Source: Micavibrio sp.
Lineage (GTDB): Bacteria > Pseudomonadota > Alphaproteobacteria > Micavibrionales > UBA9664
DNA length: 64,000 nucleotides
Assembly: GCA_002699085.1 (NCBI GenBank)
Contig: PAAR01000006.1
Coordinates: 49,063 to 113,062 of the forward strand
Reading direction: 5' to 3'
Part shown: positions 46,169-64,000 of the stretch, piece by piece
Numbering within the stretch: the first letter of the stretch is position 1
Layout: each line of letters opens with the position of its first letter
The notes under the pieces: generated by a model
The model's database searches: none
What the model was told of the DNA's origin: nothing
The model's input: the letters and a program-made list of their open reading frames with translations, nothing else
Position numbers and translations under genes: made by a program

Positions 46169-46504
46169 GCGCCGATACTGCCAATTAAAAACCTTTCTAA
46201 CAACTAAAATAAAAAGAATCTTTAAAGGATGTAGTAGTTGTATATCCCTGTGAAAATCGGGGATAAAACTTACCCCTATATTTATGCACAAGGGCTCTTA
46301 TTTTATGAATCGTTATAATTAAACAGGCTTTTACCCTATTCAATTTTTTATCCGTAGCATTGTATAAAATTAAATTATGTGTGTAAGGAGTCTTGAACTA
46401 TGTTTTGCGATCTGGGGATAAAACAATCCCCTAATTGATCCTTGCAAAAACACCTGACTTCTCCACAATGTTATACATAGGATTATGAATAAGGAGATAC
46501 AATT
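46169..46504. other. Candidate chromosomal replication origin (oriC)
   Basis: hemE-adjacent AT-rich intergenic; TTATGCACA (46282-46290), TTCTCCACA (46459-46467), TTATACATA (46471-46479), TGTGTGTAA (46379-46387), TTATCCGTA (46348-46356), and two GGGGATAAAACnnnCCCC elements whose complements contain TTATCCCC; sampled GC skew changes sign here. Confidence 0.75.
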
Positions 46505-57505: not shown

Positions 57506-58240
57506 ATGACAAGTGAACACCAGCACCTTAGGCGTCTTTACGTTGACCAACCTCTTAAAGGCGTTATTGCTTTGAGAGACAACCAACATCATTATCTGCG
57601 CAACGTTTTACGTGTTGAGGTGGGTAATCTCATTCGTGTGTTTCACGTGAAACAAGGGGAGTTTCTGGCTGAAATTCAAGAGGTGAAGAAAAAAGAAACA
57701 CTTGTTCTCATTAAAGAGCAATTGCGCAAAGTCGTTGCAGATAGTCGCTGTGTGACATTAATTGCGCCGATCATTCATAAGGATCGCATGCAAATGATGA
57801 TTGAAAAGACAACAGAATTGGGTATGACGCATTTTCAGCCTATTACCTCGGCACGATCTGAAAACCATAAGGCTAAGCAGGATAAAATAGAAGCGTGGTT
57901 CATTGAGGCGGCCGAGCAGTCCGAGCGTTTAGATATTCCTGTTTTATTGCCCACAATCAGCTTTCAGCAAGCTGTGAGACAGTATAGGCAGATTTTAGTG
58001 GCTGTTGAGCGTCAAAATACCGCACCGCTTTTAGATGCCTTAAAAATGACAGAAAATAATGAGACAGTTAATGTAATGATTGGCCCTGCAGGTGGTTTTA
58101 CGGAGGAAGAAATGGCTTTTTTGAGTGAACAAGAGTCAGTGCAGGGTGTTTCATTAGGTGAAACAATTTTGCGGGTTGAAACAGCCGCTATTTATATGTT
58201 GTCGGTTATTAATGCTGTGCGAGCGATAAAAAACAACTGA
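57506..58240 (+). CDS. rsmE: 16S rRNA (uracil(1498)-N(3))-methyltransferase RsmE
   Basis: [78 protein letters not shown]. Confidence 0.95.
57639..57654. promoter_or_regulatory. parS: parS centromere site (ParB binding), copy 1
   Basis: Perfect 16-bp palindrome TGTTTCACGTGAAACA inside rsmE. Confidence 0.9.
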
Positions 58241-63423: not shown

Positions 63424-63648
63424 ATGAAGTTCACAATCAACATTGAATGTACACCAGATGAGGCACGCGACTTTATGGGCTTGCCTGATCCTAAGATTAT
63501 TCAAGAGAAAATGTTCAAAGCAATGCAGGGAAAGGTTACAGATCTTCCAGCGGGCTGGGATGCATGGCAAGATATGCAAAAGATGATGTGGGATCAAATG
63601 GCGGCGGCGATGAATGCGCCTGCGGCTGACTCTAAAAGTAAAAAATAA
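63424..63648 (+). CDS. DUF6489-like small protein
   Basis: MKFTINIECTPDEARDFMGLPD...WDAWQDMQKMMWDQMAAAM; start refined from ORF-track 63400; stop overlaps mnmE start (TAATG). Confidence 0.75.
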   Translation: MKFTINIECTPDEARDFMGLPDPKIIQEKMFKAMQGKVTDLPAGWDAWQDMQKMMWDQMAAAMNAPAADSKSKK

Positions 63649-64000
63649 TGTCTCCGACCAATACTCCTACCATTTATGCGCTAGCATCGGCTGCTGGACG
63701 TGGCGGCGTTGCTGTTATCCGTGTATCTGGCCCAAAGGCTTTAAAGAGCTTAGTAGCGCTTACAGCGTTAAAAGAGACTGATATCAAGCCTCGCTATGCT
63801 TATTTCACTGCTGTTTTGGATAATGTTTCACGTGAAACAATTGATGAGGGGCTTGTTCTTTATTTTAAAGCCCCGAACAGTTTTACAGGTGAGGATGTTG
63901 TAGAGTATCACCTCCATGGCGGGCGGGCGATCACGCAAAAAATGTTAGAAACACTTTCAACTTTCGAAGGTCACCGTATGGCCGAACCAGGTGAGTTTAC
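63648..64000 (+). CDS. mnmE: tRNA modification GTPase MnmE (partial, runs off window end)
   Basis: MSPTNTPTIYALASAAGRGGVAVIRVSGPKALKSL...NSFTGEDVVEYHLHGGRAITQKMLE...RMAEPGEF; absent from ORF track because truncated. Confidence 0.95.
   Translation, partial: MSPTNTPTIYALASAAGRGGVAVIRVSGPKALKSLVALTALKETDIKPRYAYFTAVLDNVSRETIDEGLVLYFKAPNSFTGEDVVEYHLHGGRAITQKMLETLSTFEGHRMAEPGEF
63824..63839. promoter_or_regulatory. parS: parS centromere site (ParB binding), copy 2
   Basis: Perfect 16-bp palindrome TGTTTCACGTGAAACA inside mnmE. Confidence 0.9.

Follow-up and report, generated by a model that had tools for sequence, protein, structure and literature searches.

A 16-bp sequence within the rsmE gene is very probably a functional chromosomal parS site, one of four that together would form the centromere of this chromosome (Table 1). 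It lies in the window, by which we mean the whole 64-kb stretch of DNA that was analysed, and it matches the 16-bp parS palindrome TGTTTCACGTGAAACA at all 16 positions, about 130 bp into rsmE and near the divergent ubiA frame. The gene is read through the site in the codons CGT GTG TTT CAC GTG AAA CAA GGG, corresponding to R-V-F-H-V-K-Q-G(-E), and the site falls in the N-terminal PUA-like domain of the protein. Base composition predicts ~2e-5 perfect copies for the window, which has two; shuffled windows contain a mean of 0.39 matches at three mismatches or fewer.

Table 1. Coordinates and supporting evidence for the parS sites, their host genes and the probable origin.
Feature	Position	Strand	Evidence or context
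Probable origin of replication (AT-rich, intergenic, next to hemE)	46232..46504	.	Suggested by GC skew, hemE, the GGGGATAAAAC pair and DnaA-box-like 9-mers
rsmE, 16S rRNA (uracil-1498-N3)-methyltransferase, host of parS no. 1	57506..58240	+	TIGR00046, PF04452, PF20260; frame intact
parS no. 1, TGTTTCACGTGAAACA	57639..57654	.	Perfect palindrome, V-F-H-V-K-Q in frame within rsmE
mnmE (trmE), 5' part, host of parS no. 2	63648..64000	+	PF10396 TrmE_N, NF003661; cut by contig end
parS no. 2, same 16-mer as TGTTTCACGTGAAACA	63824..63839	.	In frame in mnmE as N-V-S-R-E-T
Two perfect parS in rsmG	contig C6 62216-62231 and 62498-62513		Beside parA, parB

Clustered parS sites, the probable origin and the ParABS proteins

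The genome is a draft of 1.89 Mb in 31 contigs (97% complete), and a genome-wide count identifies four perfect parS copies and one copy with two mismatches, the latter near chance level; copies with one mismatch are absent, and ~0.0007 (7e-4) perfect copies are expected genome-wide from base composition. The window's contig ends within mnmE and the reversed end of contig C6 resumes this gene with, by gene content, a few codons missing. No sequence overlap was found between the two contigs at mnmE, and the join that we use, with a 12-base spacer, is deduced from gene content. This putative join puts the four sites at 57639, 63824, ~67022 and ~67304 and parA and parB at ~67677-69391, so that all four perfect sites are within ~9.7 kb and, given the probable position of the origin, 11-21 kb from it. 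On the sequence, the sites in rsmE and mnmE and the two in rsmG are almost certainly genuine chromosomal parS sites, which together would make up one centromere. The original prediction, that a perfect parS lies in frame as VFHVKQ inside RsmE, is borne out by the exact match and by direct reading of the frame, although the second site in mnmE had been overlooked. It had also proposed a genome-wide count, naming a random spread over the chromosome as evidence against parS; the four perfect copies are clustered beside parAB with none scattered, and the test therefore does not refute the parS reading.

The GC skew, computed within the window, changes sign at ~46-47 kb in a region adjoining hemE, and this is the probable location of the origin, from which the rsmE site would be ~11 kb and the last rsmG site ~21 kb distant; the former value agrees with the distance given in the original prediction. 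The Caulobacter origin likewise adjoins hemE. There are two perfect copies of GGGGATAAAAC in this region (46259-46269 and 46414-46424), which are possible initiator-protein sites, and three DnaA-box-like 9-mers with one mismatch are present within 186 bp (46282-46467). These 9-mers are a weak argument for an origin because their count in the whole window equals that expected by chance.

The parA and parB genes are adjacent to rsmG on contig C6, and the genome also encodes SMC. The single strong ParB has the N-terminal, HTH and dimerisation domains, and its best match among solved structures is the chromosome-partitioning ParB 6t1f. Residues at the positions equivalent to Caulobacter 173, 179, 184 and 201, as read from the 6t1f alignment with numbering assigned from the residues named in PMC7383237, are R, T, N and G; R173 and G201 are absolutely conserved in ParB, and positions 179 and 184 vary (PMC7383237). 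The same genome thus encodes ParA together with a ParB whose specificity residues are of the parS type, as in ParABS-type systems, and with SMC these proteins indicate that a reader of the rsmE parS is present.

Loading of ParB, CTP-dependent clamp closure, sliding, ParA-driven movement and the loading of SMC are established aspects of ParABS function. For the rsmE site we infer ParB binding, clamp sliding and SMC loading, such that ParB dimers would load at the rsmE parS, form closed, CTP-dependent clamps and slide onto the flanking DNA, ParA would move the ParB-parS complex, and SMC would be loaded at parS, with the origin region then segregating first after replication. parS sites without ParB occupancy can exist, and with three other sites present the one in rsmE could be dispensable.

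The rsmE site and how it may have arisen

The RsmE of the window is a well-supported member of its family (TIGR00046, 141 bits against a cut-off of 41; PF04452 and PF20260 above cut-off) and retains the invariant residues flanking parS. We compared it with its orthologues in an alignment of 111 rows, representing about 110 independent orthologues since the locus of the window genome is present twice; a single RsmE protein used as query over named genomes gave no match, and the alignment used as query gave 80 loci. The Phe and Gly that flank the parS position are invariant across the 111 rows, and this Phe is followed by N in 99 rows and by D in 8. The window genome is alone in having H here and V-K-Q after it, the other orthologues having mostly G-R/K-D after this residue; among the about 110 orthologues it is also the only one with parS at this site. 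Because this peptide is unlike that of every other sampled RsmE, the protein evidently did not require V-F-H-V-K-Q. That a parS cassette was inserted into rsmE can be rejected, as all 111 rows align across the site without insertions or deletions; the site was therefore built by substitution. We propose that base substitutions created the palindrome with no change in length, making use of the codon of the invariant Phe and replacing the usual N-G-R-D turn with H-V-K-Q. The site is read in the rarer frame, F-H-V-K, probably because TTT within the palindrome can serve as the codon for this Phe.

The RsmE of a same-genus relative (G001) reads R-V-F-N-E-D-Q-G-E, parS is absent from the homologous place, and the homologous 16-mer is seven positions removed from parS. 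A search of 387 genomes of the class for parS followed by NGGNGA, a pattern that would miss parS elsewhere within rsmE, matched only the window genome and an unrelated rsmG. In those relatives with rsmE and parS on one contig the two are ~200 kb to >1 Mb apart and rsmE lacks parS; no parS linked to rsmE was found in any of the other sampled genomes, and among the open-access papers searched we found none joining parS, ParB and rsmE.

The location of rsmE also differs between these genomes. In G001 there is a block of genes (thiolase, zinc-finger protein, NAD-glutamate dehydrogenase, ubiA, rsmE, clpS and clpA) with the same internal order as in the window, located on another contig and outside the interval between the hemE region and mnmE. 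That interval in G001 contains a gene whose 473-codon frame includes a parS with one mismatch (TGTTTCACGTGAAACC, L195:4525-4540), read as V-S-R-E-T, and this gene has no counterpart in the same interval of the window. On the available sequences, the most economical account has the rsmE block moving in between the origin and parAB in the lineage of the window, with parS arising in rsmE afterwards, so that the gain of the site would most likely postdate the arrival of the block between the origin and parAB; we infer this order of events, whose direction and sequence rest on few genomes, mostly drafts. A broader proposal is that centromere sites follow chromosomal position and not the gene, with parS having been built in rsmE by point substitutions once the block had entered the origin-parAB interval, overriding a near-invariant Asn, and with the same-genus relative filling the interval with the near-perfect TGTTTCACGTGAAACC in a different gene; we consider this about as likely to be wrong as right. 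The gain of parS in exchange for a near-invariant residue is of modest interest, in that a site found in one genome, the loss of that residue and a coinciding difference in gene order together illustrate the gain of a centromere element in a protein-coding gene. The case is a small system, open to testing, in which selection on the DNA can be weighed against selection on the protein, and in which the pace of parS turnover can be set against an unchanging ParB specificity.

Intragenic parS sites in relatives

All four perfect parS sites of this genome are intragenic (rsmE, mnmE, and two in rsmG). Intragenic parS sites are already known and are ordinary in bacteria, and in Pseudomonas aeruginosa nine of the ten parS sites are predicted to lie within coding sequences (PMC4368675). 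The suggestion in the original prediction that a coding gene has a centromere within it therefore holds but describes an ordinary arrangement, the rsmE site being one of four such sites here, with similar cases in P. aeruginosa and in the relatives. Four intragenic sites out of four is unsurprising even without any preference, because bacterial DNA is mostly coding, and the location of parS in coding DNA can be attributed to nearly all origin-proximal DNA being coding.

An exact parS is present in 40 of 55 genomes of the organism's order, the closest named relatives being listed as Micavibrio and unclassified Alphaproteobacteria. Counted as matches in related genomes and not as independent events, the sites that were examined are in rsmG (35), mnmE (9), mnmG (7) and parB (3), with 20 outside these genes; two more lie at the very start of ParA-matching frames, probably before the start codon. 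The mnmE-mnmG-rsmG-parAB neighbourhood of parS is kept in the relatives, and the two rsmG positions, together with an N-terminal position in mnmE, are also occupied in other genera. Five relatives encode V-S-R-E-T at the middle rsmG position but lack the exact 16-mer, and in each of the five the inner 14 bases are kept and only the outermost bases differ, which argues that selection acts on the DNA.

Several other features of these regions were observed. Across the order-wide loci (L011-L025 and L180-L194) mid-gene parS sites are almost always read V-S-R-E-T and hardly ever F-H-V-K, though both frames are open. Downstream of parB in one locus (L006:215-871, minus strand) there is a frame that by eye resembles a DotI/IcmL-type protein, in which V-S-R-E-T is coded by GTATCACGGGAAACC, like a decayed parS. 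The densest cluster seen (L181, genome G050) has five perfect parS sites within 1.3 kb over mnmG and rsmG, with two more far off on the same contig. Genome G054 has two mnmG-rsmG-parA-parB regions with parS on different contigs (L191 and L192); it has 7% contamination and is probably a mixed bin.

Alternative explanations and comparison with known systems

The rsmE 16-mer could in principle be a chance product of coding sequence with no role in segregation, since V-F-H-V-K-Q is readable in frame and rsmE is intact. We regard this as highly improbable and reject it on the copy counts and the clustering of the rsmE site with the other sites beside parAB; the peptide set apart from all other sampled RsmE proteins also argues against it, as do the exact codons, for which the probability given the peptide and the codon usage of the window is ~0.004 (the corresponding value for V-S-R-E-T is ~0.016). 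Somewhat less improbable, though still very unlikely, is that the rsmE site mainly tunes local expression, with spreading ParB repressing or tuning rsmE and the divergent ubiA, and the rsmG and mnmE sites serving segregation. The proximity of the site to the rsmE start and the ubiA frame is compatible with such a role, and in P. aeruginosa raised ParB is reported to strengthen the repression of promoters next to parS sites of high affinity (PMC5521831). However, the three other perfect sites lie close to it beside parAB, a clustering typical of centromeres, and a linkage of parS to rsmE is peculiar to this genome among those sampled.

That the rsmE site is the target of a Noc-type (nucleoid occlusion) or other ParB-like protein, and not parS, seems exceedingly improbable. 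The ParB does score against the NCBIfam Noc model, though below its cut-off. The Noc binding site (NBS) differs from parS at two positions (PMC7383237) and the sequence here is parS; a Noc protein would have Q/K/K/R at the four specificity positions, and the only strong ParB has R/T/N/G, with R and G and not Q and R at the two that distinguish them. The second TIGR00180 match in the genome is weak and below cut-off. We reject a Noc-type site on the strength of the ParB residues.

The arrangement is similar to that of the chromosomal ParABS system of Caulobacter crescentus, in which the parS cluster is ~8 kb from the origin (PMC5815017). This organism belongs to the same class. In both, the parS cluster is next to parAB and to one side of the origin, the specificity positions of ParB are occupied by R and G, and SMC is present; this organism differs in having four perfect sites, 11-21 kb from the probable origin. 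As in P. aeruginosa, parS sites are located inside intact genes and the clustered, origin-proximal sites are the important ones, but the host genes are different and there are four sites only, none of them dispersed. The relatives share the same 16-mer and the same mnmE-mnmG-rsmG-parAB neighbourhood, but in contrast to their parS sites, almost all of which are in the V-S-R-E-T frame, the rsmE site uses the F-H-V-K frame and is found in the window genome only.
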